Source: Syntrophales bacterium (GTDB lineage: Bacteria > Desulfobacterota > Syntrophia > Syntrophales > UBA4778). Taken from it: a DNA stretch of 39,233 nucleotides. A program made the translations under genes and the position numbers. Location: the NCBI GenBank assembly GCA_028712885.1, contig JAQTPK010000026.1, forward strand, positions 1 through 39,233, in the 5' to 3' direction. Shown in pieces: positions 9,887 through 38,023 of the stretch; the stretch's first letter is position 1, and each line of letters begins with the position of its first letter. A model generated the notes under the pieces. It did no database searches, was not told the origin of the DNA, and saw only the letters and a list, made by a program, of their open reading frames with translations.

Positions 9887-9956
9887 AAGAAAAATCTCCA
9901 ATCGGCGGGTATGAAGCAGCGTCGAGGGGAATTCATACAGGGGGGCAAAATGCTTC

Positions 9957-10733: not shown

Positions 10734-10739
10734 AAGCAG

Positions 10740-11765
10740 ATGAACAGGATAGCCGTATTCGGCGCGGGCTCTGTCGGGTGTTATCTGGGCGGAAGGCTCA
10801 TCGCGGCGGGCGCGGACGTTCTGCTGGTCGGCCGCCCCTCCCTCAGGAATGAAGCGAAAAAACACGGTCTTACGGTAACCGACTGGCGGGGCTACCGGGC
10901 TTTTATCGAGCCGGAAAAGGTTCCTTTCGAGACGGAGCCGTCCTTTCTGAGTGGCGCCGAAGCCGTCCTGCTTGCCGTCAAGTGCCGGGATACGGCGAAC
11001 GCCGCGCGACAGATAGCGGCTTACACTCCGGCCGGGATTCCCGTCATCAGCCTGCAAAACGGCATACGCAATCCCGCCGTTCTCCTGGAGGATCTCCCCG
11101 GACGCCCCATCCTGGCGGCCATGATCCCCTTTAACATCATCCACGGAAAAGATGGGAAATTCCACTGCGGCACGGAAGGCGATATAATCCTGGAAAGCGG
11201 CAGCGGGTTCGAGAATCAGATCGCCGCGGTCTTTTCCGGGGCCGGTCTTCGCGTGCTTCTGCACGAGAGAATGGAGGGGGTGCTCTGGTCGAAGCTGCTG
11301 CTCAATCTGAATAACGCGATCAACGCGCTTGCCGGCGTTCCGCTGGCGGATGAGCTCCGGCAGCCGCTTTACCAGAAGGTCCTGGCCGCCTGCATTCAGG
11401 AAGGCCTGCATGCGCTGGACAAGGCAGGCATTCGGCCGGAGAAGATCGGAAAAGTCCGGCTTTCCCTTGTTCCCCTCCTGCTCCGGATGCCCAACATGAT
11501 CTTTCTTTCCGCGGCACGGGGCATGTTGAGAATCGATCCCCATGCGCGCACCTCCATGTGGGAGGACCTGGAGAAAAAGAGGCCGACAGAGATAGATTGC
11601 CTGAACGGTGAGATAACCGCATTGGCGGACAGTTGCGGTGTTGCGGCGCCGGTAAACAAGTCCATAATATCATTGATTAAAAAAGCAGAAGCGGCCGGAT
11701 GCGGCTCTCCGAAATTGTCGGCGCGGGGTCTCCTGGAGGCGGTTGCCGGGGCGCTCTCGGAATAA
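10740..11765 (+). CDS. panE: 2-dehydropantoate 2-reductase
   Basis: 341 aa NADPH-dependent ketopantoate reductase of pantothenate/CoA synthesis (ApbA/PanE family). The Rossmann motif GAGSVGCYLGG is at residues 7-17, the catalytic Lys is in WSKLLLNLNNAINAL (about 185), and the C-terminal SMWEDLEKKRPTEID is the typical substrate-binding segment. It begins 6 bp after the RodZ-like stop and is probably translated by coupling, as no strong ribosome site is seen. Homologues within this family sometimes use other 2-oxo acids. Confidence 0.9.
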   Translation: MNRIAVFGAGSVGCYLGGRLIAAGADVLLVGRPSLRNEAKKHGLTVTDWRGYRAFIEPEKVPFETEPSFLSGAEAVLLAVKCRDTANAARQIAAYTPAGIPVISLQNGIRNPAVLLEDLPGRPILAAMIPFNIIHGKDGKFHCGTEGDIILESGSGFENQIAAVFSGAGLRVLLHERMEGVLWSKLLLNLNNAINALAGVPLADELRQPLYQKVLAACIQEGLHALDKAGIRPEKIGKVRLSLVPLLLRMPNMIFLSAARGMLRIDPHARTSMWEDLEKKRPTEIDCLNGEITALADSCGVAAPVNKSIISLIKKAEAAGCGSPKLSARGLLEAVAGALSE

Positions 11766-12537: not shown

Positions 12538-15039
12538 ATGGAACAGTTATTCCAGCGAAACGTACCCATCAATATAGAAGACGAGATGAAAAAATCCTAC
12601 ATGGATTACGCGATGAGCGTGATCATTGGGAGGGCCATCCCGGACTGCCGGGACGGCCTGAAACCGGTGCACCGCCGCGTGCTGTTCGCCATGTCCGAGA
12701 TGGGGAACGTCTGGAACAGGCCGTATAAAAAAGCGGCAAGGATCGTCGGGGACATCATCGGTAAGTACCATCCGCACGGAGACGCGGCGGCTTACGACAC
12801 AATCGTCCGCATGGCCCAGGATTTTTCGATGCGATATCCCCTGATTGACGGCCAGGGGAACTTCGGCTCCATCGATGGCGACCCGCCGGCAGCGATGAGG
12901 TACACGGAAGTAAGGATGGCGAGAATCGCCGAGGAGCTTCTTGCCGATCTGGACAAGAATACCGTGGACTTCCTTCCCAATTACGATTCCTCCCTGGAAG
13001 AGCCGACGGTTCTTCCCGCGAAGATTCCCCTGCTCCTCCTGAACGGCTCCTCGGGGATAGCCGTCGGCGTGGCGACGAATATTCCGCCCCACAATATTTC
13101 GGAGGTGATCCACGGTACGATCGCGCTGATCCGCAATCCCGAAATAACCGTCGAGGGGCTGATGAAGCATATCAAAGGCCCCGATTTTCCGACGGCGGGA
13201 TTTATCAACGGGCGGGAAGGCATTGTCTCCGCCTATACGACGGGGAGGGGATCGATCCGGATACGGGCCAAGGCCTTCATCGAGAGGAACGCCCGGAACG
13301 ACAGGGAGAGCATCATCATCACCGAACTGCCTTACCTCGTTAACAAGGCGAACCTGATTGAAAAGATTTCCGAGCTTGTCAAGGATAAGAAGGTCAACGG
13401 CATAACCGACCTGAGGGACGAATCGGACCGGGACGGCATCAGGATCGTGATCGATCTCAAGAAGGATGAAATTCCCGGGGTGCTGCTGAACCAGCTGTAC
13501 AAGTTTACCCAGATGGAAAGCTCCTTCGGGATCATCATGCTGGCGATTGACCGCGGCCAGCCCAGGGTGATGAATCTCAAGGACATCCTTCAGAAATTCG
13601 TGGATTTCCGCCGCGAGGTGGTGACGCGCCGGACCTTCTTCGAACTGACGAAGGCCAGGGAGCGGGCCCATATCCTCGAGGGCCTGATACGGGCCCTGGA
13701 GCAGATCGATGCAGTGATCGCCGTGATAAAGAAGTCGGGAAGCCCTGCCGAGGCGGCGGCGGCCCTGTGCAGCAGGTTCGGCTTGAGCGAGATCCAGGCG
13801 AAGGCGATCCTCGATATGCGCCTGCAGCGCCTGACGGCCCTCGAGCGGGGGAAGATAGAAGACGAATACGCCGAGCTGGTGCGGCTCATCGGGGAGCTCC
13901 AGGCTATCCTGGACGACCCCCGGAAGGTGCTGGACGTGATCGTCCGCGAGCTCGAAGAAATCCTGTCGCGCTACGGCGACGAGAGGCGGACGGAGATCGT
14001 CCACAGCAGCGAGGATATCGATATAGAGGATATGATCGTCGAAGAGGACATGGTGGTGACGGTATCGCATACCGGCTACATCAAGCGCAATGCCGTCAGC
14101 CTCTACCGGAGCCAGCGCCGCGGCGGCCGCGGAAAGGTCGGCATGGCCACCCGGGATGAGGATTTCGTGGAGCACATCTTCGTCGCCTCCACGCACAGCT
14201 ATATCCTCATCTTCACGAACAAAGGGCGGGTATACTGGCTCAAAGTGTACCAGGTGCCGCAGGCCGGGCGCGCCGCCAAGGGCAAGGCCATCGTGAATCT
14301 GATCCAGATCTCCGAGGGAGAGCGGGTGGCGGCCATCCTGCCGATACGCGAATTTGCGTCGAACCGCTATGTCGTGATGGCGACGAAGAAGGGGATCCTG
14401 AAAAAAACGGACCTGATCGAGTATTCGCGTCCGCGCACGGGAGGGATCATCGCCCTTTCGATCGACGAAGGCGACGAGCTGATCGACGTGCGACAGACGC
14501 TGGGCGATCAGGACATTTTCCTCGGCACCCGCAAGGGGATGGCGATCCGGTTTAAGGAGACCGACGTCCGCGACATGGGCAGGGTTGCGCGCGGCGTGAT
14601 CGGCATCAGGATGGACGAGGACGACGAGATCGTTGGCATGGAAATCCTCGGCGAAGGCAACGGCAATACCATCATCACCGTCTCCGAACGGGGATTCGGA
14701 AAGAGGACGAACATCGATGAGTACCGCCCGCAGGCCCGCGGGGGGCGGGGATTGATGAACCTCCGCACCGTTCCGAAAGTGGGCTTCGTGTCCGGAATCC
14801 GGCAGGTGACGGGGGAAGAGGACCTGATGCTGATCAGCAACACCGGGAACATCATCCGCATGCGGGTGGACGAGATACCGGTCCACCACCGGGTGACGCA
14901 GGGCGTCCGCCTGATCGACCTCGGTCCCGATGAACAGGTCGTAAGCCTGGCCAGGACGGAGCGGAAGAGCGAGGTCCGCGATGAAGATGCGGACCTGCCG
15001 GATGAAGGCGGCGAGCCCGACGAAGATGGCCTGCTCTAA
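12538..15039 (+). CDS. gyrA: DNA gyrase subunit A
   Basis: 833 aa from the ATG at 12538 (an ATG at 12511 is in frame but the conserved N-terminus begins here). The breakage-reunion domain carries catalytic Tyr122 in MRYTEVRM, with the same numbering as E. coli. The quinolone region reads [10 protein letters not shown], giving Ala at position 83 and Asp at 87. The GyrA box QRRGGRG (526-532) identifies gyrase rather than topoisomerase IV and starts a C-terminal beta-pinwheel. The last ~20 residues form an acidic tail. It introduces negative supercoils with GyrB, which is not in the window. Ala83 is naturally associated with lower quinolone binding in other genera. Confidence 0.98.
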
Positions 15040-15150
15040 AGAAAGAAGCTGAGAAATGGAGAGGCTGAGCAGTTGAATCAGGACCCCGGGTAGCGAACTC
15101 CTGCCGTTTGCCCGATACCCGATACCCGATACCCGATACCTGAAGATCCC
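15040..15150 (+). repeat. gyrA-archease spacer with heptamer repeat
   Basis: The spacer contains four perfect tandem copies of cccgata (15111-15138), followed by a partial unit, ending 12 bases before the archease start. No gene or terminator is seen. The 7-bp period is shared with other intergenic repeats in this window. Confidence 0.7.
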
Positions 15151-15588
15151 ATGCCTGACGATCGAAACCTGAAGCCCCGTTACCGTTTTATCGACCATAC
15201 GGCGGATCTGGGCATTGAGGTCCGCGGTGAAACAGAAAGAGATCTCTTCGCGAACGCGGCCCTCGCCGTTCACGACCTTATCGCCGATACCCGCACAGTG
15301 CGCCCGCGGGAATCCCGCGTAATTTCCGTCTCCGGGATAGACAGCAACGATCTCCTGGTCAACTTTCTCCGGGAAGTTCTTTATCTGTTCAATGGCGAGC
15401 GGATGCTTGCGGCGAACTGCACAATCCTGGAGATGGACGGGGAGAGGGTTAAGGCCGAGCTGCGCGGAGAGATATTTGACCGGGAGCGGCACGCGCTGAA
15501 AAAGGAAATCAAAGCCGTCACTCACCATCAGGCCGACCTGCGGCGGGGTAAAGGCGGCTGGAAGGCAAGGATTATTTTCGATGTCTGA
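15151..15588 (+). CDS. Archease, RtcB activator
   Basis: 145 aa, full length. The N-terminal YRFIDHTADLGIEVRG holds the metal-binding Asp residues; the C-terminus has KKEIKAVTHHQAD and WKARIIFDV ending in the conserved Asp-Val. Family knowledge: archease speeds guanylylation and turnover of the RNA ligase RtcB. Its stop overlaps the rtcB start by 8 bases, so the two are co-translated. No ribosome site is obvious, and translation may depend on the gyrA transcript. Confidence 0.93.
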   Translation: MPDDRNLKPRYRFIDHTADLGIEVRGETERDLFANAALAVHDLIADTRTVRPRESRVISVSGIDSNDLLVNFLREVLYLFNGERMLAANCTILEMDGERVKAELRGEIFDRERHALKKEIKAVTHHQADLRRGKGGWKARIIFDV

Positions 15589-17029
15589 GCTTCGACTGGA
15601 GAGACTGGACGCATACCGGTGGAAGGTGCCCATGCACGGAGGGATGCGCGTTCCGGGCATCATTTACGCCAGTGAAAAGATGCTGAGGGAAATGGGCAAA
15701 GATGAAAGCCTGCGCCAGGTGGCAAACGTGGCCCATCTGCCGGGGATAGTCCGCTGTTCGCTGGCCATGCCTGACATGCACTGGGGCTACGGTTTTCCCA
15801 TTGGCGGCGTGGCGGCATTCGACCCTGCAGAAGGGGTAATCTCTCCCGGTGGGGTAGGCTACGATATAAACTGCGGCTGCCGGCTTCTGGCGACCGGCCT
15901 CGCTGCCGAAGAGATCAAGCCCAGGCTCCATGACCTCATATCCGCCCTGTACCGGGACATTCCTTCGGGCGTGGGATCGACGGGCTCCATCCGTCTCCGT
16001 ATCCAGGAGGAAAAAAAGGTATTGAGGGAAGGCGCCGCCTGGGCCGTCAGAAACGGGTACGGGTCGGCGGAAGACCTGGAAGCCACGGAAGACGGGGGAC
16101 GGATGGAGGGAGCCGACCCGGACAAGGTCAGCGACCGCGCGCTGGAACGGGGGCGCGATCAGCTCGGGACCCTCGGGTCGGGAAACCATTTCCTCGAGAT
16201 CGAGAAGGTAGAAGAAATTTTCGACGGGGATACGGCGCAGGCGCTCGGGCTTTGGAAAGGGCAGGCGGCCGTGATGATCCATTCGGGTTCGAGGGGCCTC
16301 GGGCATCAGGTGTGCGACGATTTCATCGCAAAAATGGTCCGGCTCGATCAGAAAATGGGACTCAATCTTCCCGACCGCCAGCTCGCGTGCGCCTACATCT
16401 CCTCCCGTGAAGGAGAAGATTATTACGCGGCCATGTGCTGCGCCGCGAACTATGCCTGGGCGAACCGCCAGATGCTCATGCACTGGACGAGAGAGTGCTT
16501 CGAGAAAACGCTCCGCAAATCGCCTCGCGAGCTGGGGATGAAGCTGATATACGACGTCTGCCACAATATCGCCAAGTTCGAGAAAATTCCCCTTGGGGAG
16601 GAGGGAAGGGAGAAGGATCTCTGTGTCCACCGCAAAGGCGCGACGCGCGCCTTTCCTCCCGGCCACCCGGCCCTGCCGGAACGTTTCCGGCGGACGGGCC
16701 AGCCGGTCCTCATCCCCGGCGACATGGGGACGGGCTCTTATGTGCTGGCCGGCACGAGCAAGGCGCTGGCCGAGACTTTCGGAAGCACCTGCCACGGCGC
16801 CGGGAGATTAATGAGCCGGGCCCAGGCGGTTAAATCGAGCCGGGGCAGGCAGATCCGGAAGGAGATGGAGGAGCGGGGCGTCCTGGTGATGTCCACCGGC
16901 AAGGCTACGCTCCAGGAGGAAATCCCGGAAGCCTACAAGGACATCGACGAAGTGGTAAATATAGTGCACGGGGCGGGTATTTCGAAAAAAGTAGCCAGGC
17001 TCCGTCCGCTGGCCTGCCTCAAAGGATAA
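15581..17029 (+). CDS. rtcB: RNA-splicing ligase RtcB
   Basis: 482 aa, complete. It ligates RNA 2',3'-cyclic phosphate or 3'-phosphate ends to 5'-OH ends using GTP and Mn2+. All catalytic residues are visible: Asp95 and Cys98 in DINCG, His203 (GNHFLEIE), His234 (IHSGSRGLGH), His329 (CHNIAKFE), HRKGATRAFPPG, and the guanylylated His405 in STCHGAGR. It is paired with archease, a common RNA-repair arrangement, and sits after gyrA in the same direction. No RtcA or RtcR is present. Confidence 0.97.
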   Translation: MSELRLERLDAYRWKVPMHGGMRVPGIIYASEKMLREMGKDESLRQVANVAHLPGIVRCSLAMPDMHWGYGFPIGGVAAFDPAEGVISPGGVGYDINCGCRLLATGLAAEEIKPRLHDLISALYRDIPSGVGSTGSIRLRIQEEKKVLREGAAWAVRNGYGSAEDLEATEDGGRMEGADPDKVSDRALERGRDQLGTLGSGNHFLEIEKVEEIFDGDTAQALGLWKGQAAVMIHSGSRGLGHQVCDDFIAKMVRLDQKMGLNLPDRQLACAYISSREGEDYYAAMCCAANYAWANRQMLMHWTRECFEKTLRKSPRELGMKLIYDVCHNIAKFEKIPLGEEGREKDLCVHRKGATRAFPPGHPALPERFRRTGQPVLIPGDMGTGSYVLAGTSKALAETFGSTCHGAGRLMSRAQAVKSSRGRQIRKEMEERGVLVMSTGKATLQEEIPEAYKDIDEVVNIVHGAGISKKVARLRPLACLKG

Positions 17030-24507: not shown

Positions 24508-26136
24508 TTACACCTTACGAAAATAAGTTCGCATTTCATTGCACAGCTCGTTGACGGTAAAGCAGGTCCCGTCGTATTTCAGGATGCGCCCGGATACGGT
24601 TATGTCCAGTTCCCGCTTGAGAAGACTCGCGAACTGGCCGGTCGCATTGTTCTCTACGGCAACCACTTTCCTCCGATGCAGGCCGTACCTGTCGATCATG
24701 CCGGGAGTGAGTGGAAATACCTGTCCGAAGTGAAGACCTCCGACCCGGATTCCTTCTCCGCCGAGCCTCTCGACCGCTTCCTTGACAATGGGTCCGTTTG
24801 ATCCCCAGCAAACGAGGAAAACATCCGCATCGGCCTCTCCCATCGGGGTGGGGGCGATCGCCTCATCGCGGATCCCCCTGAATTTCGCGAGCCTCTTATC
24901 CACCATGCGGACGCGCAGGTTCAGGTCTTCCGTGATCGAACCCGATTCGTCATGCTCGTCGGAATCTACGCGCACGAGAGCGTCGCCGAGCCCGGGATAC
25001 GTAACAGGCGAGACTCCGTTTTCAGTAATGGCGTACCTGCGGTAATCGGAGCCGTATACATTGTATTCCCGAGCGATTATCCCCGTATCGAGAGGCTCTT
25101 CGATAATCTGCTGGGAGTCGGCGAAATACTGGTCCGAAAGAATGAAGACGGGGATCTGGAACCGGTCCGCCAGCTCGAAGCTCTTGCGGGCGAGCAGTAC
25201 GGCTTCCGCGGGGCTCCCCGGTGCGAATACTATCCGCGGGAATTCGCCGTGGCCGGCATGGAGGACGAAGTTGAGGTCGGCCTGTTCCGTCCGGGTGGGC
25301 AGTCCGGTGGACGGACCGGGGCGCTGGCCTACGATGATGACGACCGGCGTTTCCGTCATTCCGGAGAGAGAAACGGCCTCCTGCATCAGGGCGAAACCGC
25401 CGCCCGAGGTGGCGACCATTGATCGAAGTCCCGCATAAGAGGCCCCGAGGGCCATGTTCAGGGCCGCGATTTCATCTTCGGCCTGTTCGAAATGAACAGT
25501 CAATTCGAGGGCGGCCGCCGCGAAATATACCATTATGGAAGTGGAAGGGGTCATGGGGTAACCGGCCATGAACTGGCACCCGCCGAGGAGGGCGCCTATG
25601 GCGAGAGCCTGGTTTCCGTCAAGGCGGTAATGGTTGCCCGCCCGCGTGGACAGAGGGTATCTGTCCGCGACGTCCCATTTGTTCGCGAGGGAGAAACCGG
25701 TTCGCACCGGATCGAGAGAATCTCCTTCGATCCGGGCGATATCTCCGTCTCCGCATCCCATTGCGGACAGCACCACCCCGGAAAGGATTTCATTCGCCGC
25801 GGTGATGCGGCCGTATTTTTCCCTGGCCTGTTTGTTAAGCTCCTCCGTCATTTCCAGGGATATGAACAGCCCCCCCTTTTTCAAATCGGGCTTGTGTCTC
25901 TGCTCCGATTCCCGATCGAGAGCGACGACTATATCCCATCCGTCTCCGGAAAGCGCGTGGACGGGGTTCTCCGAAATCCTGAACATGTGGTAATTATGGC
26001 CGCCGCGCACCCGGGACATGTAGTTCTTTGTGGCAAAAAAGCGAAAACGGAGCTTCGAAAGGATATCGACCAGGGTATTTTCGAAAGACGCCAGTCCCTG
26101 TCCGGCTTCGCCTCCGATCAGAAGATTGAGCTCCAT
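24508..26136 (-). CDS. korA: 2-oxoacid:ferredoxin oxidoreductase, fused gamma-alpha subunit
   Basis: 542 aa. Residues 1-180 are the gamma domain (LLIGGEAGQGLAS, then YMSRVRGGHNYHMFRI). The rest is the alpha subunit: GNQALAIGALLGGCQFMAGYPMTPS, the VATSGGGFALMQEAVSL segment, and a domain III region with WGSNGPIVKEAVERL. The fusion order is that of KorAC-type enzymes. AAAGGAG precedes the ATG. It forms a complex with KorB. No delta (ferredoxin) subunit is nearby, so an external ferredoxin is expected. In syntrophs it would feed or drain low-potential electrons. Confidence 0.93.
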   Translation of the reverse strand: MELNLLIGGEAGQGLASFENTLVDILSKLRFRFFATKNYMSRVRGGHNYHMFRISENPVHALSGDGWDIVVALDRESEQRHKPDLKKGGLFISLEMTEELNKQAREKYGRITAANEILSGVVLSAMGCGDGDIARIEGDSLDPVRTGFSLANKWDVADRYPLSTRAGNHYRLDGNQALAIGALLGGCQFMAGYPMTPSTSIMVYFAAAALELTVHFEQAEDEIAALNMALGASYAGLRSMVATSGGGFALMQEAVSLSGMTETPVVIIVGQRPGPSTGLPTRTEQADLNFVLHAGHGEFPRIVFAPGSPAEAVLLARKSFELADRFQIPVFILSDQYFADSQQIIEEPLDTGIIAREYNVYGSDYRRYAITENGVSPVTYPGLGDALVRVDSDEHDESGSITEDLNLRVRMVDKRLAKFRGIRDEAIAPTPMGEADADVFLVCWGSNGPIVKEAVERLGGEGIRVGGLHFGQVFPLTPGMIDRYGLHRRKVVAVENNATGQFASLLKRELDITVSGRILKYDGTCFTVNELCNEMRTYFRKV

Positions 26137-27712: not shown

Positions 27713-27840
27713 AAAAAACGGGTTCAAAAAGCCCAGATGCAAGGCGCGCGAGGTTCGAGCAGCGCAGCGTACTAATTACGTACGTGAGCAGCGAGAGCCG
27801 AAGCGCAACACCGCAGATGGGCGTTTTCAACCCGTTTTTT
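27713..27840. repeat. Large palindromic element (28-bp arms) after sufB
   Basis: The left arm 27713-27740 (starts aaaaaacgggttc) and right arm 27813-27840 (ends aacccgtttttt) are inverted repeats with 24 of 28 positions matching. The 72-bp centre is GC-rich with further partial complementarity around tacgtacgt. Each strand reads a stem ending in a T-run, so it can act as a two-way terminator; it abuts the sufB stop codon. It looks like a dispersed, MITE-like palindromic repeat, with no coding capacity. Confidence 0.75.
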
Positions 27841-29050
27841 ACATCATATCTTTATTGCTTTGCTCTACCGCCCTGTCTATCTCCGCCTTGAGCGGGGCCG
27901 GCAGTCCGGGGATATCGACGCTCATGAAGCCCCTCACGATGGTCGAAGTGGCTTCATCTTCGCTGAGACCGCGGGACATGAGGTACAGGATCTCCTCCTG
28001 CGCGATCTTTCCGACGGCGGCCTCGTGGGACATCTCCACTCCGTCCACCTTTCCCTGGAGCTCGGGTATGGCGTGAATGATCCCGCCTCTCAGAATGAGT
28101 CCGCGGCACTCGAGGTGAGCCCGGATTCCCGGCACTTCGCCGACAAGGTCGCCGCGGGAGACGATGGTCCCGCCGTTGCTGATGGCCCTGGCGATTATTT
28201 CGGCGCGGGTTTCCGCCGCGGAAAGAAAAATGCGGCCGCCTACGTCGAGGGTCGTTCCGGGGTTGCCCGCGAGCAGGCTGTAAAAGCGCGAGACCGCCCC
28301 CCTGCCGGTGAGGCGCGTGACAGGAAACATCTGGAGCGACTTGACCGGTTTCATGCAGATGTAATTGTTCAGAAAAAGGCCGCCCTCTTCCACAACGCCC
28401 ACTGAGCGCGGCCGGACCATCATTTCCTCCGCCCAATGGTGGATCATGGTGAAGCTCAGCTTGGCGTTCTTCTTGACGAAGAACTCGGAGATGCCTACGT
28501 GCAGTCCCCTTTTCAAGTGGGGCGAAGTCGCGCAGCCGGTGATCACATGAAGTTCCGAGTCCTCCTCGGCGATGATCAGGTTATGCACGTACTGGCTTAT
28601 GTTGTTCCTGTCCAGGTAAAGGCAGGCCTGAACGGGCAGAAAAACCCTGCTTCCGGGCAGCGCCCTGATCACGTAGCCGTCATGCAGATTCAGCTGCGCC
28701 CCCGCCGTGTATTTGTCCGCGTCCACGTTGACGAGTTTCCAGTAATAATCCCGCGCCCACTGGTGCTCTTCCAGGGCCTGCTTTATCGGCAGGACCAGGA
28801 GTCCGTCCTGGGATGAATGGGAATAAACCACCGCCGTATCTTTCTGTATGTACGTTCCCGACCGGCCTTCTTCGGAGGCGTCGACACCGGCCTGGAGCAT
28901 CCGCTCCCTGTCCTTCTCCGGGAGTTGGGATGGGGAATCCAGGCGGGGGATCCCGACAGGCTCCGCGTCAAAGGTTGTGAGGTCGATGTCCGGGCCGAGA
29001 GCCGCTTTCTTTTCTTTTGCCTGCTTTGCCTTTTCGTTCAGGTCGCGCAT
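27839..29050 (-). CDS. sufB: SufB-like Fe-S cluster scaffold protein
   Basis: 403 aa from the ATG at 29050 (GAGGAG upstream). It belongs to the SufB/SufD family: a right-handed beta-helix core (HVITGCATSPHLKRGLHVG, FVKKNAKLSFTMIHHWAEE) and the conserved C-terminal block RAHLECRGLILRGG, IHAIPEL, EMSHEAAVGKIAQEEILYLMSRGL. With the neighbouring SufC ATPase and no SufD or SufS, this matches the minimal SUF-like (SMS, SmsCB) systems of anaerobes and archaea. It assembles Fe-S clusters in the cytoplasm. Its start overlaps the sufC end by 13 bases. Confidence 0.92.
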   Translation of the reverse strand: MRDLNEKAKQAKEKKAALGPDIDLTTFDAEPVGIPRLDSPSQLPEKDRERMLQAGVDASEEGRSGTYIQKDTAVVYSHSSQDGLLVLPIKQALEEHQWARDYYWKLVNVDADKYTAGAQLNLHDGYVIRALPGSRVFLPVQACLYLDRNNISQYVHNLIIAEEDSELHVITGCATSPHLKRGLHVGISEFFVKKNAKLSFTMIHHWAEEMMVRPRSVGVVEEGGLFLNNYICMKPVKSLQMFPVTRLTGRGAVSRFYSLLAGNPGTTLDVGGRIFLSAAETRAEIIARAISNGGTIVSRGDLVGEVPGIRAHLECRGLILRGGIIHAIPELQGKVDGVEMSHEAAVGKIAQEEILYLMSRGLSEDEATSTIVRGFMSVDIPGLPAPLKAEIDRAVEQSNKDMM

Positions 29051-29799
29051 CTGACGCACTCCTCGTAGCCGATTCTTTTTATACACCGGAAGATTTCCTG
29101 GGGATTGCTCTTGCAGGAGAGCATGCCTTCATAGAGGACCTGTCCCTTGTCCGCAGTGACGTAATCCAGAATGAAACCGGTATGGGTGATGATCAGGCCC
29201 ATCTTCTTCCGCTCCTGCAGGGCCTTATTTCTCGGCTGGTTGGGGGACGTATGGACATGGATATCCCGCTCAAGCAGCTCGCTGATGGTATTGCCGATCA
29301 GGGAAATATTCTCCAGGTCCACTCCCGACTCCGGCTCGTCGAACAGCATCAGATCCGGGTTCTGCGCCATCAGCTGCAGCAGTTCCGAACGCTTGATCTC
29401 TCCGCCGGAAAAACCTGCGTTTATATCCCGGTCGAGGAAATCGGAAAATTTCATTTTTTCGGCCATTGCTTCCGCATCGGCCCCGTTGCGGGAGCAGATC
29501 CGCACCATTTGTCTCGTTTTGAGGCCGTGTATAGTGGGGGGCCGCTGGAAAGACATTCCTATGCCCAGGCGGGCGCGTTCGTTGATAGGCATGTGTGTAA
29601 TGTCGACACCCTTGAAGTAGATCTTTCCCCCTGTAACCCGGTATTGCGGATACCCCATAATCGTCATCAGGAGGGTCGTCTTGCCGGACCCGTTCGGTCC
29701 GAACAGGATATGCGTTTCGCCCGGAAATATCTCCAGGTCGATGTGCCGGAGGATCTCTTTGTCCCCCAGCGTTACCTTCAGGTCTTCGATTATAAGCAT
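29038..29799 (-). CDS. sufC: SufC-like ABC ATPase
   Basis: 253 aa from the ATG at 29799 (GAGAGGTG upstream). Walker A GPNGSGKTT (34-42), signature FSGGE (130-134), Walker B LMLFDEPESG (150-159); the SGGEIKRSE and DEPESGVDLE pattern is specific for SufC. A C-terminal tail with four Cys (CKSNPQEIFRC, ECVRC) is unlike classical SufC and recalls the SMS type. It drives conformational changes of the SufB scaffold. Confidence 0.93.
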   Translation of the reverse strand: MLIIEDLKVTLGDKEILRHIDLEIFPGETHILFGPNGSGKTTLLMTIMGYPQYRVTGGKIYFKGVDITHMPINERARLGIGMSFQRPPTIHGLKTRQMVRICSRNGADAEAMAEKMKFSDFLDRDINAGFSGGEIKRSELLQLMAQNPDLMLFDEPESGVDLENISLIGNTISELLERDIHVHTSPNQPRNKALQERKKMGLIITHTGFILDYVTADKGQVLYEGMLSCKSNPQEIFRCIKRIGYEECVRCAT

Positions 29800-30031
29800 A
29801 TGTTTCACCTCTCGGAAACTCTCCGGATTATCTATCACAAAACAGCGGAAAAGGCATCAATTCTCAGTGGCTGGGGAGCTTCCCGACATGTCCGGAAGGC
29901 CGGTTACCTGCGGTCTTTCCAGAAGAACGGCAGTATATGTCCTGGAAAACGCCGGGGTGATAAATTCGGAAATGTACGTGAAGGGCAGAATAATTTACTT
30001 TACTTCGAATAACTTCATTTGTCCATAAGCC
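29800..30031. other. Spacer between feoB and sufC, 232 bp
   Basis: No gene with a start codon. On the minus strand an open stretch without a start (about 29864-30001) encodes roughly 45 residues (LPFTYISEFITPAFSRTY ...); it may be a relic. No riboswitch or clear promoter is recognised. The two transcripts may still be linked. Confidence 0.4.
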
Positions 30032-32281
30032 TTACTGAAAGAGGAGGGAAGCCAAACGATAAGCCGCAAACCCGGCTGCGTAAGAGATCAGGAGCATTCC
30101 GGCAATCGTTCCGTAAAACCATTTCCGGTCTGTTACTTCCTGCCTCATGACGGCGAGGGTGGCGGCGCAGGGGACAAACAGCATCAGGACGACCAGAAAG
30201 GACAAGGCGGACGCAGGCGTAACGGCTTGGGCGAGCACCGTCCTCAGCCCCTCCCTGCCGACTCCGTAAAGAACGCCGAGAGAGGCTACCGCGTTTTCCT
30301 TGGCAATCAGGCTTGTAAAAAGGGCTACCAGCATCTTCCAGTCGAGGCCGATGGGGCTTCCGACAGGCTCGAGTATCTTTCCGATCCGTCCGAGAAAACT
30401 CTCTTCGATCCCCGGTCCGGGGAAGCTCGACAGCAGCCAGAGGGCGATCGAGACGGCCAGGATCACCGTTCCCGCCTTCCGGATGAAGGCGCAGGTCCGG
30501 CTCCAGACCGCCCGTCCTATCGTGCGGAGATCCGGCGGCTGGTAGAGGGGCAGTTCCATGATGAACGGCATGGATTCGCCCTTCAGCGCCCAGCGGCTGA
30601 TCAGGGTCCCGCCCAGCCCCAGGATGATGATATTGAGCGCTACCAGAGACCAGGAAATTATTCCTCCCTGCCGGCCGAAAACCGCCGCCGTCACGACGGC
30701 GAGGACGGCGAGCCGCGCCGTGCAGGGGACGAACGGCGCCAGTATGACGGTCAGAAGGCGGGCTTTCGGCGACTCCACTATCCGGGCGCCGAGGACCGCG
30801 GGCACGTTGCACCCGAATCCGAGGCACATCGGGATAAAACTCTTTCCGTGGAGGCCGACCAGGTGCATGAATCTGTCCATGACGAAGGCGGCGCGGGCCA
30901 TATATCCCACGTCCTCGAGAATCGCCAGTGCGGTGAAGAAGATAATGAGCACGGGAAGAAAGGTCAGGACCGAGCCGACTCCCGCAATAATGCCGTCCAG
31001 CAGGAGGCCCTTGAGCCAGGAGGGCGCCGCCCCCAGCGCTGATTCCGCGAGCCTGCTGATGTCGCTCAGCACGCTCTCGAGCAGGCTCTGGACGGGAAAG
31101 CCGATCCTGTAAGTGAGAAAGAAGACGACGGCAAGGATTCCGATCAGCGCGGGGATGCCGAAGAGGGGCCTCGTCAGGAACCGGTCTATCCGGTCGGTCT
31201 TGAGGACCTGCCCCCTTTTGAAGCGGCGGATGGACGCGCGGGTGACGTTCTCGATCCAGCCGTAGCGTCCGCCGACCACGGCCTGATGCGAGTCTTCATG
31301 CTTGATCAGGACGGACTGAATGCGGGACCATGCCTCGGGCGCAAGCACCTCTTCCATTTTTTTCGATACTTCCGCGTCCCCTTCCATGATCTTGGTCGTT
31401 ATCCAGGGGATCATGTAGGATCCGGGGAGCGCATCGCGAATCTCCCTGCTTATATCGAGAAAGACGTCCTCGTGGTCGCTCCTCACCTCCGGGATGTGCG
31501 GATGATAATCGAGCTTGCCTTCCGCCAGGCGGACGATATCGGTGACCAGCTCCCTGATGCCTGTATTTCTCTTTGCGACCATCGGGATGACGGGAATGCC
31601 GAGGGACTTCTGCAGCGCATTTATGTCCACGTGGATTCCCTGGGATTCCGCCAGGTCGATCATGTTCACGGCCACGATCACGGGAGGACCCAGCAGCAGG
31701 AGTTCCGAGAGGAGATAAAGGCTCCTTTCAAGGGCGGCGGCGTTGACGATCAGGACGATGACGTCGGGATATTCTCCGATAATGAAATCACGGGCCACCT
31801 TTTCTTCTTCGGAAAAGGCGGTCAGCCCGTACGTGCCGGGCAGGTCGACAATCCTGATCTCGCGGTCCCCCGAGACGTGGATTCCCTCTTTCTTCTCCAC
31901 CGTCTTTCCCGGCCAGTTTCCGACATGCTGGGAGAGTCCTGTCAGGATATTGAACACCGTAGATTTACCGACGTTAGGCTGTCCCAGAAGTGCGGCCAGA
32001 ATCCTTTCCGGCGGCTTTTCCGGTACTGCTGCTTCCGGCCGGCGCGACTTCGTCCGGAAGACGAGAATATGCTCCGCCTCTCCTCTCCCGAGCGCGACGC
32101 GGGTGTCGGAAACCAGCAGGATCAGCGGTCCCCTGCGGCTTCTCAGCACTTTTACGCCGGCGCCGACCGATATGCCCATCCCCGCAAAGCGGCTGGCCAG
32201 GGCCCTTCCGCCTGCGATGGAGTGAATAATCCCTTCTTCTTCTTCCCGCAGGTCCGTCACGGGGAGGATCTTTCCGTTCAC
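30032..32281 (-). CDS. feoB: Ferrous iron transporter, FeoA-FeoB fusion
   Basis: 749 aa from the GTG at 32281 (AGGGGGG upstream). An N-terminal FeoA/SH3-like domain (about 5-78) is fused to the G domain: G1 GQPNVGKST (100-108), the NWPGKTVEKKEG loop, G3 DLPG (146-149) and G4 NMID (206-209). The membrane part has Gate motifs with Cys (PMCLGFGCNVPAVLGAR, FVPCTARLAV, FVPCAATLAV). It imports Fe2+ under anoxic conditions. The gene lies on the same strand as sufCB, tying iron uptake to Fe-S assembly. Its start overlaps a 33-codon ORF by 4 bases. Confidence 0.94.
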   Translation of the reverse strand: MNGKILPVTDLREEEEGIIHSIAGGRALASRFAGMGISVGAGVKVLRSRRGPLILLVSDTRVALGRGEAEHILVFRTKSRRPEAAVPEKPPERILAALLGQPNVGKSTVFNILTGLSQHVGNWPGKTVEKKEGIHVSGDREIRIVDLPGTYGLTAFSEEEKVARDFIIGEYPDVIVLIVNAAALERSLYLLSELLLLGPPVIVAVNMIDLAESQGIHVDINALQKSLGIPVIPMVAKRNTGIRELVTDIVRLAEGKLDYHPHIPEVRSDHEDVFLDISREIRDALPGSYMIPWITTKIMEGDAEVSKKMEEVLAPEAWSRIQSVLIKHEDSHQAVVGGRYGWIENVTRASIRRFKRGQVLKTDRIDRFLTRPLFGIPALIGILAVVFFLTYRIGFPVQSLLESVLSDISRLAESALGAAPSWLKGLLLDGIIAGVGSVLTFLPVLIIFFTALAILEDVGYMARAAFVMDRFMHLVGLHGKSFIPMCLGFGCNVPAVLGARIVESPKARLLTVILAPFVPCTARLAVLAVVTAAVFGRQGGIISWSLVALNIIILGLGGTLISRWALKGESMPFIMELPLYQPPDLRTIGRAVWSRTCAFIRKAGTVILAVSIALWLLSSFPGPGIEESFLGRIGKILEPVGSPIGLDWKMLVALFTSLIAKENAVASLGVLYGVGREGLRTVLAQAVTPASALSFLVVLMLFVPCAATLAVMRQEVTDRKWFYGTIAGMLLISYAAGFAAYRLASLLFQ

Positions 32282-32379
32282 CTGCCCCCCTTCCGCGCTT
32301 CGATCCGGTCGAAGCACTTTACGAACCGCGCCATTTCCACAATATTGCTTATTTCGATCAGAAAAATTTCACGATCCAT
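32278..32379 (-). CDS. 33-residue ORF translationally coupled to feoAB
   Basis: ATG at 32379, with GGTGA five bases upstream. It encodes MDREIFLIEISNIVEMARFV and a basic tail (FDRIEARKGGR), and its TGA overlaps the feoB GTG (GTGA). The peptide is amphipathic, with one Cys and no membrane helix. It may be a leader or a real small protein of the Feo system; I do not recognise it. Confidence 0.5.
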   Translation of the reverse strand: MDREIFLIEISNIVEMARFVKCFDRIEARKGGR

Positions 32380-33808: not shown

Positions 33809-34684
33809 ATGAAAACCAATCATTCAAAGTGTTCGTGCACGCGCAGGCAGGTCCTGATCTGGGGCGGGACTTCGATCATTGGATTGACGGCCCTTCGCTT
33901 TTGTGTTGCACAGGAAGATTACAGGCCTCTCATCATAATGGAGAAGGCTCGTGGTGTGATTGTCGCCGATCCGGTCCGATGTGTCGGATGCGGCCGGTGC
34001 GAACTGGCCTGCACGGAATTCAATGACGGCAAGGCGGCCCCTTCGATGTCGCGAATCAAGGTGGACCGCAATCTGAATTTTGGTCCTCTTGGCGCCGCAA
34101 CCTGGCGTGAAGGGCGCGGCAACATGGGAGATGGACTCATCGTGCAGGACCTCTGCAGGCAATGTCCTCATCCGGTGCCCTGCGCCGATATCTGTCCCGA
34201 AAATGCGATTATCCTGTCGCCCGCGGACAATGCCCGCATGATCGATCCGGAAAGGTGTACGGGCTGCAAGGTCTGCCTGCAGGCCTGCCCCTGGGAGATG
34301 ATTTCCTTCGATCCGGAGAACGGCAAGGCAACCAAGTGCAACCTTTGCGAGGGGAAGCCCAAATGCGTGGAAGCCTGTCCGGCCGGGTCATTGAGTTATA
34401 TTGCCTGGACTGATCTGACGGGAAAAATTCCCCCGCGCAATCTGAGCACGGCTCCCCTTCCGCAGCAGAAAGCTCTCAGCTGTCAGGAATGCCACATGCC
34501 GGGACAGCCGCATAATATCCGCCGGATCGGACCGTCGATCCTTACGGCGCTCGGTGGAGGCCGGTCCGCCTCTGCAGGCGGGATCGGGTTCAAATGGATC
34601 GACATGGCAGGAGCGATCCTTGTCCCGGCGGCGATCGGATCCGTACTTGTCCATGCCTTATTGAGGAAGATCAGGAAAAAATGA
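33809..34684 (+). CDS. Tat-type HybA/YdhX-like Fe-S protein with CxxCH motif
   Basis: 291 aa electron-transfer subunit. The N-terminus has a twin-arginine motif (CTRRQVLIWGG) and a short hydrophobic stretch, suggesting Tat export. Four [4Fe-4S] cysteine groups follow: CVGCGRCELAC, CRQCPHPVPCADIC, CTGCKVCLQAC and CNLCEGKPKCVEAC. Near the C-terminus SCQECHMPG contains CxxCH, a potential haem c site. A final membrane helix (about 268-285) anchors it. It should pass electrons between the AOR and the cytochrome b. The ATG overlaps a poor ribosome site (cagg directly before it). Confidence 0.87.
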   Translation: MKTNHSKCSCTRRQVLIWGGTSIIGLTALRFCVAQEDYRPLIIMEKARGVIVADPVRCVGCGRCELACTEFNDGKAAPSMSRIKVDRNLNFGPLGAATWREGRGNMGDGLIVQDLCRQCPHPVPCADICPENAIILSPADNARMIDPERCTGCKVCLQACPWEMISFDPENGKATKCNLCEGKPKCVEACPAGSLSYIAWTDLTGKIPPRNLSTAPLPQQKALSCQECHMPGQPHNIRRIGPSILTALGGGRSASAGGIGFKWIDMAGAILVPAAIGSVLVHALLRKIRKK

Positions 34685-35325
34685 AGCAAATATGTCTCCA
34701 TCCGCTCCCGCTCAGAATATGGCACTGGTTGAATGCATTGATCGTTATCGTCCTGATCGCGACCGGCCTGTATATGCGGCTCCGCGGTGTGGCATCCCTC
34801 AACCCCCATGATCCGGTCCTGCTGTGGCACAAGTTGGCGGGCATTGCGATGATGGTTGCGACAGCATTTTGGCTTATATACACGATTTCAAGCGAGGATC
34901 TGAGGCGCCGGCTCAAAATCAAGAAAAGCGATTTAAAAGGTGCCTATCCCCAGGCCCGGTATTACCTTTTTTCCATGTTCAAGGGGGAAGAGAACCCGTT
35001 CCAGGCCTCCGCAGCCGAGAAGTACAATCCCCTGCAGAAAATGGCCTACGGTGCAGTCATGTTTGTTTTCATCCCGGTGCTGACATTTACGGGCCTTCCC
35101 TTCATGGATATACCTTTGCTGCGGGACTATTTCCTTTCCGCAAAACTCGTGGGGCCTCTGGGCGCGCTGCACGTGCTTTTCGCCTATCTATTCGTCCTCT
35201 ACCTGATCTTTCATCTTTATATGGCAACGCTGGGCGAGACGTTCTTCTCCCATACACAGGCGATGATCGTCGGGTATGAAGAGCAGGGCCGCGGAGTGAA
35301 AGAAGAGGAGGCCGGACCCGCATGA
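34681..35325 (+). CDS. Cytochrome b subunit (FdhI/b561-like)
   Basis: 214 aa from the ATG at 34681, overlapping the Fe-S gene stop by 4 bases. Four to five membrane helices with haem-ligand candidates in LPLRIWHWLNAL, LLWHKLAG, ALHVLFAYL and IFHLYMATLG. This is the di-haem cytochrome b fold of formate dehydrogenase and NiFe hydrogenase gamma subunits. It would exchange electrons with menaquinone. Overlaps the aor start by 4 bases. Confidence 0.88.
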   Translation: MKQICLHPLPLRIWHWLNALIVIVLIATGLYMRLRGVASLNPHDPVLLWHKLAGIAMMVATAFWLIYTISSEDLRRRLKIKKSDLKGAYPQARYYLFSMFKGEENPFQASAAEKYNPLQKMAYGAVMFVFIPVLTFTGLPFMDIPLLRDYFLSAKLVGPLGALHVLFAYLFVLYLIFHLYMATLGETFFSHTQAMIVGYEEQGRGVKEEEAGPA

Positions 35326-37445
35326 AGAGAATGGGGATGAGGGGCTATGGAGGGTGGGCCGGCAAAGTCCTTCGGGTTGATCTATCGACAGGCCGGTGCT
35401 GGACGGAGGACACGATCGAGCGCTATAAGGCGTATCTCGGCGGCACCGGGATCGGCTACAAGGTGATGTGGGATGAAGTCCCGGCCGGGACCAAACCTTT
35501 CGATCCCGAAAACCGGATTATTTTTGCCGTGGGTCCGCTGGCGGGGACGGGCGCCCCCTGTAACGGCCGGACGGCCGTAACCACCCTCTGGCCCACCTGC
35601 TGGCCCGAACCGCTCGTGGCGTCCGGGCACATGGGCGGGCAATTTGCCGCCAAGCTCAAGTACGCCGGCTATGACGCCGTCGTCATCCAGGGGAAGGCGG
35701 CACACCCCGTATGGCTCATGATTGCGGATCAGAAAGTCGAGATCCGCGATGCCCGCGGGATCTGGGGACAGGGCATTCGCGGGGCAACGGCGGCCATCTC
35801 CGGGATAATGGGTACGGACGCGGTGGTGGCCGCGATCGGGCAGGCCGGCGAGAACCTGGTTCCCATGTCCGTCGTGATGAGTTCCGTATCCCACTCCGCC
35901 GGCGGCGTCGGATCGGTAATGGGATCCAAGAAGCTCAAGGCCATCGGCGTCCGCGGCTCGGGCAGCATCCGTATTGAGGGCAGGAAGGAAGACTGGGAAA
36001 AACTGATCAAATATCACCTCACGCTTTTAGGAGCGAACAACCAGCATGTTGTCCCCAACTCCCCGCAGCCCTGGGCGGAGTTCGACAACCCGACCTCGCG
36101 GTGGAATGCGTCACCGGGAAGGAGCTGGGGAGCCTCTGCCTATCCCGTAGATACGGGGACCTGCGATCCCCGCGATACCAACCGGATCGCCTACCGTTCG
36201 AACAACGCCGCTTTTTTTCTGGGCGACATCGCCTGGCGCTATACGGTCCGTGGAAACGGCTGCACGAGTTGTCCCATCCGCTGTCACACGATGCTCAAGG
36301 TTCCCCCGGTTACAGCGAAATACGGCATTTCCGCTGTGGGGCAGAATACCTGTACAGGGCTCCTTTTCGGAGCCGCTTTCTTCAAGGAATTTCCCGACGG
36401 ACCCAGGGGAATGGCACGCCTGGAGGCCTGTATGGTCGGCATGAACCTGGCCGACGACCTCGGCATCTGGTGCAATTACATGCAGGTACAGCGCGATTTC
36501 AAGAAGCTCTACTATGGAGGCGTGGTTGAAAAGAAACTCGACGCCCGGGAGTTCCGCAGCTATTCCTGGAAAAAGTATGAGCAGGGGGACCCGGCATTTC
36601 TTTTCGAGCTGTTGCCCCGGATCGCTGAGAAGAAGGGAGAGCTGGGTACGGCCCTGGGCCAGGGCACGGGTTATATGTTGGAGCGCTGGAGCCTCTCCGA
36701 GGAGGAGTGGGGAAAGGACAAGGACCTGGCCTACTGGAAAATGGGACATCCCAGACACCATGCGTCGGAAGATTCGGGGCAATGCGGCCTTCTCATCAAC
36801 CTGGTGTACAATCGCGACCCAACGTGTCACGCCCATACCAATTTCCTGCGGAACGGACTGCCGCTGCCGGTTCAGAAAAAAATCGCCGCCGAGATCTGGG
36901 GCTCTGCCGAAGCAGTCGATGCCGTGGGGGAATATAAGCCCATGCACCCGTCGAAGGCGCGGATGGCCAAATGGTCCCTCCTGCGAAAGGAGCTGCACGA
37001 TTCGCTCTCCCTGTGCAGTTGGATGGCCCCTTGGGCGGCCTCTCCTCTCCGGGAGCGCGAATACCGGGGCGACGTTTCCATTGAATCGATGCTCTACAAG
37101 CTGGCAACCGGGGACGACAAAGACCGCGGGGAACTGGATCAGATCGCGGAGCGCATATTTCTCCTCCACCGGGCTTTGACGATCCGCGCAATGGGGACGA
37201 AGGAGATGCGGGTCCGCCACGATAAGATACCCGAATGGGTCTTTACGGATAAATCCGGCAGGCCTCCCTATACAAAAGGAACCACCCATCTGGATCGAAA
37301 CGACGTTCAGACCGCCCTCGATATGTTTTACGATGAACTTGGCTGGGACAGAGCGACCGGAGCGCCGACGCGCGGGACTTACCGCAAATTCGGTCTGGGA
37401 AGCATCGCCGAAGCGCTGGCAAAGAGAAACCTGGTGCCGGAGTGA
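35322..37445 (+). CDS. aor: Aldehyde ferredoxin oxidoreductase family protein
   Basis: 707 aa tungsto/molybdopterin enzyme. The N-terminal AOR domain has the family start GWAGKVLRVDLSTG and GPLAGTGAP. [4Fe-4S] ligands are Cys314, Cys317, Cys321 (GCTSCPIRC) and Cys488 (DSGQCGLL). It interconverts aldehydes and acids. It has no signal peptide, so it is cytoplasmic. It sits in a tight operon with a multi-cluster Fe-S protein and cytochrome b, like E. coli ydhV with ydhX/ydhU, suggesting quinone-linked rather than soluble ferredoxin use. Substrate unknown; benzoyl-CoA reductase BamB is a related alternative. Confidence 0.93.
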   Translation: MKRMGMRGYGGWAGKVLRVDLSTGRCWTEDTIERYKAYLGGTGIGYKVMWDEVPAGTKPFDPENRIIFAVGPLAGTGAPCNGRTAVTTLWPTCWPEPLVASGHMGGQFAAKLKYAGYDAVVIQGKAAHPVWLMIADQKVEIRDARGIWGQGIRGATAAISGIMGTDAVVAAIGQAGENLVPMSVVMSSVSHSAGGVGSVMGSKKLKAIGVRGSGSIRIEGRKEDWEKLIKYHLTLLGANNQHVVPNSPQPWAEFDNPTSRWNASPGRSWGASAYPVDTGTCDPRDTNRIAYRSNNAAFFLGDIAWRYTVRGNGCTSCPIRCHTMLKVPPVTAKYGISAVGQNTCTGLLFGAAFFKEFPDGPRGMARLEACMVGMNLADDLGIWCNYMQVQRDFKKLYYGGVVEKKLDAREFRSYSWKKYEQGDPAFLFELLPRIAEKKGELGTALGQGTGYMLERWSLSEEEWGKDKDLAYWKMGHPRHHASEDSGQCGLLINLVYNRDPTCHAHTNFLRNGLPLPVQKKIAAEIWGSAEAVDAVGEYKPMHPSKARMAKWSLLRKELHDSLSLCSWMAPWAASPLREREYRGDVSIESMLYKLATGDDKDRGELDQIAERIFLLHRALTIRAMGTKEMRVRHDKIPEWVFTDKSGRPPYTKGTTHLDRNDVQTALDMFYDELGWDRATGAPTRGTYRKFGLGSIAEALAKRNLVPE

Positions 37446-38023
37446 AATCACCTGCCATGAAGGGAAGATCTGAAAAAAATGATCGGACAGGCCGGGAGGA
37501 TGCCGCGGCGGAAAGAGCGGCGGCGCTGATCAGGGAAAAAAGCTCCGCCGGCCGTCTCGTTTCTGAATCGGAGATAATCAGCCTGTTGGAAGAGGAGCGC
37601 CGGAAGTGTCCGGATTCTCTTTTCACCCGATTGCCGGATGAAAACGAAGACGTGCACAGGCTCTCCGGAGCGGGCTCACATTTTTATTACTCTTCGCGCC
37701 ATATGACGGAGATCTATGCGCGGCTCCTTCTCCTCAAGCTGGAGGGCCCCCTCCGGCTCATTGCGGAAACAGTCCGCAGGAACTCCTGCGCCTGCCGGAG
37801 GCCGGTGCCGTTGGACCTGTTTACGCAACCCCCCTTCAATCTCACCCGCCAGGAGGTCCTGGATTCTCTGGCAGAGATGTCCCGAACGGAGGGATGGGAA
37901 GATATTGCCGTCGCTTCCACTTCCGCTTCCGTAGTCTTTCTTTATTCCAGGGCGCACCTGGAAACGGGGCATGCCGAGATGCTGGCCGAATGGCTTGATG
38001 TAGGCCAGGTCCAGAATCCCTGA
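37442..38023 (+). CDS. Uncharacterised protein of the AOR operon
   Basis: 193 aa, GTG start overlapping the aor stop (GTGA); an ATG at 37457 is the alternative. A charged N-terminus is followed by ESEIISLLEEERRKC, a helix SSRHMTEIYARLLLLKLEG, CACRRP and FNLTRQEVLDSLAEM. It looks globular and alpha/beta, without membrane helices. It occupies the place of the unknown ydhW/ydhT proteins in the E. coli cluster, but I cannot show homology. It could be an assembly or regulatory partner. Confidence 0.7.
   Translation: MKSPAMKGRSEKNDRTGREDAAAERAAALIREKSSAGRLVSESEIISLLEEERRKCPDSLFTRLPDENEDVHRLSGAGSHFYYSSRHMTEIYARLLLLKLEGPLRLIAETVRRNSCACRRPVPLDLFTQPPFNLTRQEVLDSLAEMSRTEGWEDIAVASTSASVVFLYSRAHLETGHAEMLAEWLDVGQVQNP

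Follow-up and report, generated by a model that had tools for sequence, protein, structure and literature searches.

FdnGHI and PhsABC each combine a periplasmic Mo/W subunit, an Fe-S subunit and a four-helix cytochrome b with two haems, and BamBC (class II benzoyl-CoA reductase) is a cytoplasmic CoA-ester enzyme. The locus described here resembles the first two in architecture, although they have catalytic subunits of the DMSO reductase family and not of the AOR/WOR (aldehyde/tungsten oxidoreductase) family, and it resembles the third in its fold and, putatively, in the Cys ligation known from the W-bis-MPT of BamBC. In FdnGHI the export signal is described as lying on the catalytic subunit (PMC10924467). 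YdhV-type enzymes are found in E. coli and in many anaerobes and, in the accounts given of them, have no known substrate, activity or chaperone (PMC9103625, PMC13328260); we agree with an earlier annotation made from the letters of this DNA (hereafter the sequence-only reading) that the function of E. coli ydh is unsettled, and the E. coli-type complex is uncharacterised. The 2026 classification of tungsten oxidoreductases defines its Class V by a Tat/membrane signal of the kind present here and proposes a periplasmic orientation for these enzymes, so that the orientation favoured below is not new (PMC13328260).

The window is the whole stretch of 39,233 nucleotides that was analysed (contig JAQTPK010000026.1 of a Syntrophales bacterium). 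Four plus-strand genes at 33809-38023 form an operon that is real and conserved, and that is a variant of the functionally unsolved Ydh-type system. In our reading its product is, with a probability of about 0.78, a Mo/W oxidoreductase of the YdhV clade ('Class V WOR') that is bound to the membrane and faces the periplasm. With E. coli YdhYVWXUT it shares homologous YdhY, YdhV, YdhW and YdhU proteins, a Cys metal ligand and a predicted link to the membrane. The match to ydh that the sequence-only reading had seen is nevertheless partial: the Y, U, V and W proteins correspond, but the order is Y-V-W-X-U-T in E. coli and FeS-cytb-V-W in the window, which lacks YdhX and YdhT. The second Fe-S protein YdhX, YdhT and a YdhY with TRLEF and a lipobox-like LLGC are confined to E. 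coli in this comparison, whereas the C-tail helix and the CxxCH tail are confined to the Fe-S subunit of the window. As in the Class V WORs of clade 41, represented by CsWOR41 LSW of Cetobacterium somerae, a large subunit (L) is accompanied by a Tat-signal small subunit (S) and a third small gene; the description of CsWOR41 gives three genes with Tat genes close by, and the window adds a cytochrome b, the C-tail helix and a putative haem c (PMC13328260). A tail-anchored Tat ferredoxin with an FdnI-like cytochrome b, likened here by its description, has the same Tat signal, C-tail and cytochrome b partner; it is reported as a two-gene locus without a known enzyme partner, and the window operon, which adds a YdhV-type enzyme and YdhW, supplies such a partner for this type of module (PMC10924467).

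Layout and conservation of the operon

The features of the operon are the following.

33809..34684, plus strand: Fe-S subunit, WorS/YdhY type, 291 aa, carrying a Tat signal, four sites for [4Fe-4S] clusters, the CxxCH motif in the tail and a membrane anchor at the C-terminus
33839..33859, plus strand: twin-arginine motif TRRQVLI at residues 11-17, with a hydrophobic stretch after it
33980..34378, plus strand: 16 cluster cysteines (residues 58-190) in four [4Fe-4S] motifs
34481..34495, plus strand: CQECH (residues 225-229), a putative site of haem c attachment, separate from the 16 cluster cysteines
34598..34681, plus strand: transmembrane helix of the C-tail, which holds the conserved His282 and ends in RKIRKK (net +5), in 12/12 cytochrome-b-type rows
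34681..35325, plus strand: cytochrome b, FdnI/PhsC/YdhU-like, 214 aa, with His15, His50, His164 and His178
35322..37445, plus strand: catalytic subunit, YdhV-family Mo/W-bis-pyranopterin enzyme, 707 aa
36351..36353, plus strand: Cys344, aligned with metal-ligand Cys336 of E. coli YdhV, Cys in 45/46 rows
37442..38023, plus strand: member of the YdhW family (193 aa, GTG start), a candidate assembly/export factor with a predicted tandem winged-helix fold

The operon, the families, the Tat motif, the cluster and haem-b ligands, the metal-ligand Cys, the CxxCH motif and the polarity of the C-tail are all read from sequence. The genes overlap by 4 bases at every junction (ATGA, ATGA and GTGA), as had been claimed and as the ORF coordinates bear out, and the coupling of Fe-S, cytochrome b, catalytic and YdhW genes agrees with the earlier description of a respiratory-type operon. 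Pfam searches found four Fer4-type clusters in the first protein, Ni_hydr_CYTB/b561 in the second and AFOR_N with AFOR_C in the third; the fourth matched no Pfam family and had no solved relative by sequence.

The order FeS-cytb-AOR is kept at 11 further loci (the loci compared carry numbers beginning with L), so the arrangement is not due to chance. The sequence-only reading had named a loss of AOR homologues from the operon as evidence against itself; the catalytic gene is in fact retained in it. Three loci (L076-L078) were fragments and were left out, and the contig of L063 lacks an Fe-S gene. The closest named relatives belong to Syntrophus/Syntrophaceae and to further deltaproteobacterial MAGs, at 83% for the large subunit, from which a syntrophic lifestyle of the host is plausible; within the phylum sample, YdhV exceeded the cut-off in none of the 15 other genomes of the host's order. 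Among 23 loci compared, no gene of the flanks recurs in a way that would point to a substrate; the few clusters of shared flanking genes each join two to four loci, and some of them look like antisense ORFs. No RNA elements (such as a Moco riboswitch) or tRNAs were found in the window.

Elsewhere in the window, on the minus strand, 24508-26136 encodes a 2-oxoacid:ferredoxin oxidoreductase-like subunit, and 27839-29838 and 30032-32317 were read by eye as a SufBC-like pair and FeoB. Three long minus-strand ORFs (12547-15663, 9933-11543 and 15572-16795; 1038, 536 and 407 aa) gave no Pfam match at 1e-5, and some of these may be chance ORFs.

Fe-S subunit, export and membrane link

The Fe-S protein is closer to E. 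coli YdhY (37%) than to YdhX (26%), so that YdhY replaces the ydhX product as its comparison partner. The Tat-like motif noticed earlier is present, judged by motif and hydropathy, and RR, with a hydrophobic stretch behind it, is found in 40 of the 41 Fe-S homologues with a complete N-terminus (39 by script and L080, SSRREFFL, by eye; L053 and L064, whose N-termini lie off their contigs, were not counted). Homologues without RR had been named as evidence against the earlier proposal; the single exception is E. coli YdhY with TRLEF, which counts against our model. The full S/T-R-R-x-F-L-K consensus is present in many relatives. The Fe-S alignment and tree were built without L082, which is the same record as L060. 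In E. coli YdhY (L003 8852-9478), L066, L070 and L075, a lipobox-like GC follows the Tat-like stretch, as if these four proteins were lipid-anchored; in E. coli YdhY the RR is changed to RL.

At the other end of the protein, the helix spans about residues 264-285 of 291, within 50 residues of the C-terminus, as in tail-anchored Tat Fe-S proteins, and with TRRQVLI it corresponds to the Tat signal and/or transmembrane domain of the WorS of Class V WORs. The last eight residues carry a net charge of +3 to +5 in all 12 cytochrome-b-type rows, which also keep the helix His (12/12). By the positive-inside rule, this basic end places the tail in the cytoplasm and the Fe-S domain on the outer face. 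CxxCH is the motif needed for covalent attachment of haem c, a step that takes place outside the cytoplasm; the tail motif thus agrees with export of the Fe-S subunit. TatC adjoins the operon in L066 and L075, two distant relatives, and is present in the window's own genome; as TatC is ubiquitous, this is weak evidence.

The catalytic protein starts about 10 residues ahead of the conserved fold and, as the sequence-only reading had stated, has no signal. From this that reading had drawn a dilemma, in which either the complex faces inward on a retained anchor or electrons cross the membrane. NarG is a precedent for a retained, non-exporting RR stretch, and a complex that faces the cytoplasm as a whole would suit a catalytic subunit without a signal. 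Such an orientation is nonetheless very improbable given the full Tat consensus in many relatives, the positive far side of the C-tail (12/12), the conserved CxxCH as a periplasmic modification motif and the tatC genes beside the operon in two relatives. Placing the Fe-S subunit outside and the catalytic subunit inside, with electrons passing through cytochrome b across the membrane, would match a signal carried by the Fe-S subunit only. We hold this arrangement to be more improbable still: six FeS-AOR-YdhW trios (L057, L061, L062, L080, L085 and L087) have no multi-span membrane gene among their listed flanks, so that nothing would bridge the two subunits and a catalytic subunit in the cytoplasm could not reach an exported Fe-S subunit, and the best PDB kin of the Fe-S subunit are small subunits solved in complex with AORs. 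Both arrangements were therefore rejected.

Most likely, judging from these sequences, the signal-less catalytic subunit is co-exported on the Fe-S subunit by hitchhiking, which is the simplest reading given small-subunit relatives solved with AORs and trios without a membrane gene. Standard co-export is thus a third option beside the two of the dilemma; it largely answers the topology puzzle and opens two testable points, the tail haem c and YdhW as a chaperone. The reported failure of CsWOR41 S to co-purify with L counts against the model (PMC13328260).

The cytochrome b scores 86 bits against PF01292 and matches E. coli YdhU at 31%. Its four histidines (His15, 50, 164 and 178) are invariant in 13/13 rows, including E. 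coli YdhU, and we take them to form two haem-b pairs, placed as in FdnI; together with the PF01292 match this corresponds to the FdnI/PhsC type, a four-helix protein with two bis-His haems b, the haems being predicted. The coupled cytochrome b and YdhW genes also correspond to the at least one further subunit of Class V WORs. Other relatives have other membrane links, namely a YdhX-like Fe-S protein with NrfD in L071 and L090, the latter also with a cytochrome of 16 CxxCH motifs.

The coupling to menaquinone that had been proposed is not supported. No known menaquinone pathway was found in the window's own, nearly complete genome (G000): PF02621 (MqnA/D) was absent, and MenD (57 bits, cut-off 244) and MenB (171 bits, cut-off 343) fell far below their cut-offs; one UbiA-family protein is present, and the matches of the quinone-gene search lie on contigs C20, C58, C63 and C78. 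The only other genome of the cytochrome b type in the sample (G324) likewise lacks MqnA/D and has no MenB over the cut-off. These results for the two genomes count against the model.

Of 43 Fe-S subunits, 33 have a CxxCH in the tail position; the motif is missing from ten, namely E. coli YdhY, eight clostridial, halanaerobial, limnochordial and spirochaetal proteins and the outlier L093. In a tree of the catalytic subunits (46 rows), the CxxCH rows form one clade of 34 rows (support 96/96), which includes L063 with its Fe-S gene off the contig. Nested in it is a single clade of the 12 rows that have the C-tail and the cytochrome b (100/99). The tree suggests that the C-tail helix and the cytochrome b were gained together, once, inside the CxxCH clade.

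We regard the CQECH tail as a putative haem c site. A ResB gene adjoins CcsA in the own genome, so that haem c maturation is possible. It could also be that the tail is a site for Zn or another metal, or a docking element, with the rest of the model standing. Many short-form Fe-S subunits end 0-5 residues after the CxxCH and offer no obvious sixth ligand, and no paired-CxxCH cytochromes were found in the own genome, a result that also weighs against our model. This alternative is sizeable but distinctly below an even chance, since both Cys and the His are kept in 33/33 rows of the clade while the flanks vary, the Fe-S protein is predicted to be exported and PF01578 (cytochrome c assembly) is present in all 30 genomes examined. 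A literature search, mostly at record level, found no haem c on a WOR small subunit.

The catalytic subunit and the direction of electron flow

The large protein scores 1015.4 bits against the NCBIfam YdhV family NF007354 (curated cut-off 868) and matches E. coli K-12 YdhV at 45% in a direct comparison. Cys336 of YdhV is described as an extra metal ligand common only to BamB (PMC12096430), and by analogy with that account the aligned Cys344 is a putative metal ligand; the single row of 46 without Cys at this position is a second, different AOR gene in L052. The family score and the aligned Cys correspond to the WorL of the YdhV clade that marks Class V WORs. A Cys ligand on W in an AOR fold is also the mark of BamB, and the AlphaFold model (pLDDT 81.1; residues 238-294 under 50) superimposes on BamB 4z3w with Z 35.2 over 579 residues at 2.8 A, at 26% sequence identity. 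The Z scores with AORs are tied with this (about 34), so the fold alone cannot decide the type of enzyme. The two structure alignments (A1 and A2) hold 26 and 24 rows, taken from the window and related loci other than L079-L092. Instead of BamC-I partners and a cytoplasmic location, the window has a Tat-signal Fe-S protein, a cytochrome b and YdhW, and no bam-type genes were found in the annotated subset of its ORFs.

Coupling of aldehyde/acid conversion to the quinone pool by a true aldehyde oxidoreductase would be in keeping with the AFOR_N and AFOR_C domains, with the fold match to AORs and with H503, a His retained near the aligned AOR His448. Aldehyde oxidoreductases in the strict sense, however, have no protein ligand on the metal and have a second-shell Glu313 (with Tyr312), whereas the window protein has Cys344 and Gly340-Gln341 where the second AOR-like protein of its own genome has Tyr-Glu, a comparison that the profile alignment moves by one column. 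The second-shell residues of aldehyde oxidoreductases are described as missing from the YdhV clade (PMC12096430), and the large subunit of the relative CsWOR41, assayed alone, is reported to be inactive on 46 aldehydes (PMC13328260). The acid/aldehyde conversion proposed by the sequence-only reading is thus poorly supported in view of the extra Cys ligand, the missing catalytic Glu and the inactive relative; a true aldehyde oxidoreductase of this kind is highly improbable, and an aldehyde/acid substrate is unlikely. By its sequence, the catalytic subunit is a YdhV-family enzyme with a predicted Cys ligand rather than an ordinary aldehyde oxidoreductase. The second AOR-like protein of the own genome, with the Tyr-Glu pair of aldehyde oxidoreductases, is encoded on contig C42 (L094 9609-11735).

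For the periplasm-facing YdhV-type complex we propose the following steps. YdhV would fold in the cytoplasm with its bis-pyranopterin and one [4Fe-4S] cluster, and the folded protein would dock to the Fe-S subunit with the help of YdhW. The pair would then be exported by Tat on the signal of the Fe-S subunit, after which the C-tail helix would lock it to the cytochrome b. Electrons could pass along a path formed by the Cys-ligated metal, five [4Fe-4S] clusters, the putative tail haem c, two haems b and a membrane carrier. As to direction, ydh is reported to be FNR-activated in E. coli (PMC3688515) and the system is called the 'predicted Ydh reductase' (PMC4257093), which together give a weak lean to a membrane-fed reductase: we put reduction of a periplasmic acceptor at about even odds and consider oxidation of a periplasmic donor clearly less likely. 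The places to look are the periplasm and haem c, and simple aldehyde oxidation is not to be expected.

YdhW, a candidate assembly factor

The fourth protein, previously left as unknown, is YdhW, judged by a match to the family NF007411 (E 8.3e-35, 120.6 bits) that lies below the curated cut-off of 203 and by its position next to YdhV; it matches E. coli YdhW at 31%. In the phylum sample, YdhV exceeds the cut-off in 15/395 genomes and YdhW is found in 14/395, all within those 15 and in 0/380 genomes without YdhV over the cut-off. Of the 28 named loci L048-L075, 25 have an intact YdhW gene close to that of the catalytic subunit; in L054 it is split between two frames, L051 lacks it, and in L058 it falls beyond the contig.

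The YdhW model (pLDDT 91.6) has two winged-helix domains of helix-strand type. Foldseek returned no match at E <= 0.001, and VIA-align gave common winged-helix matches with Z up to 8.8, mostly over residues 9-88, so that only the general winged-helix fold is claimed from the model. A TorD/NarJ-like chaperone was considered but found little support: no such family appeared among the Pfam or structure matches, and the model shows winged-helix domains, the fold of those chaperones being all-helical.

We propose YdhW as a candidate assembly factor or chaperone for YdhV. According to authors working on YdhV, a cofactor-binding chaperone for this enzyme is still to be identified (PMC9103625), and our literature search, mostly at record level, found no role for YdhW. 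The protein might instead act as a transcription regulator or a permanent subunit; its nearest folds include the PadR, BlaI and MecI winged-helix repressors at middling Z. On the other hand, it is translationally coupled to YdhV and tracks it, most YdhW proteins are acidic (pI 4.4-5.3 in 36/38; window 5.8, E. coli 4.55) and it has no signal, and we place a regulator or subunit role somewhat under even odds.

A more speculative history, which we advance tentatively, starts from a Tat-exported polyferredoxin with a tail haem c that would first have served a soluble periplasmic YdhV giving electrons to periplasmic cytochromes; it would later have been tied to the membrane by the C-tail and cytochrome b gained in one step, with YdhW as a new, tandem winged-helix dedicated chaperone for bis-pyranopterin enzymes. 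If true, the chaperone role would explain the inactivity of YdhV purified alone. The parts to co-express with YdhV are the Fe-S subunit, YdhW and the cytochrome b.

Longer YdhW proteins (L065, L071 and L089-L092) have an internal S/T-R-R-x-L-L motif that resembles a Tat n-region, without an obvious hydrophobic core. In a Syntrophaceae MAG (L054 5612-6152), YdhW lies over two reading frames, which reflects either a frameshift or a sequencing error, and this locus was left out of the YdhW alignment.
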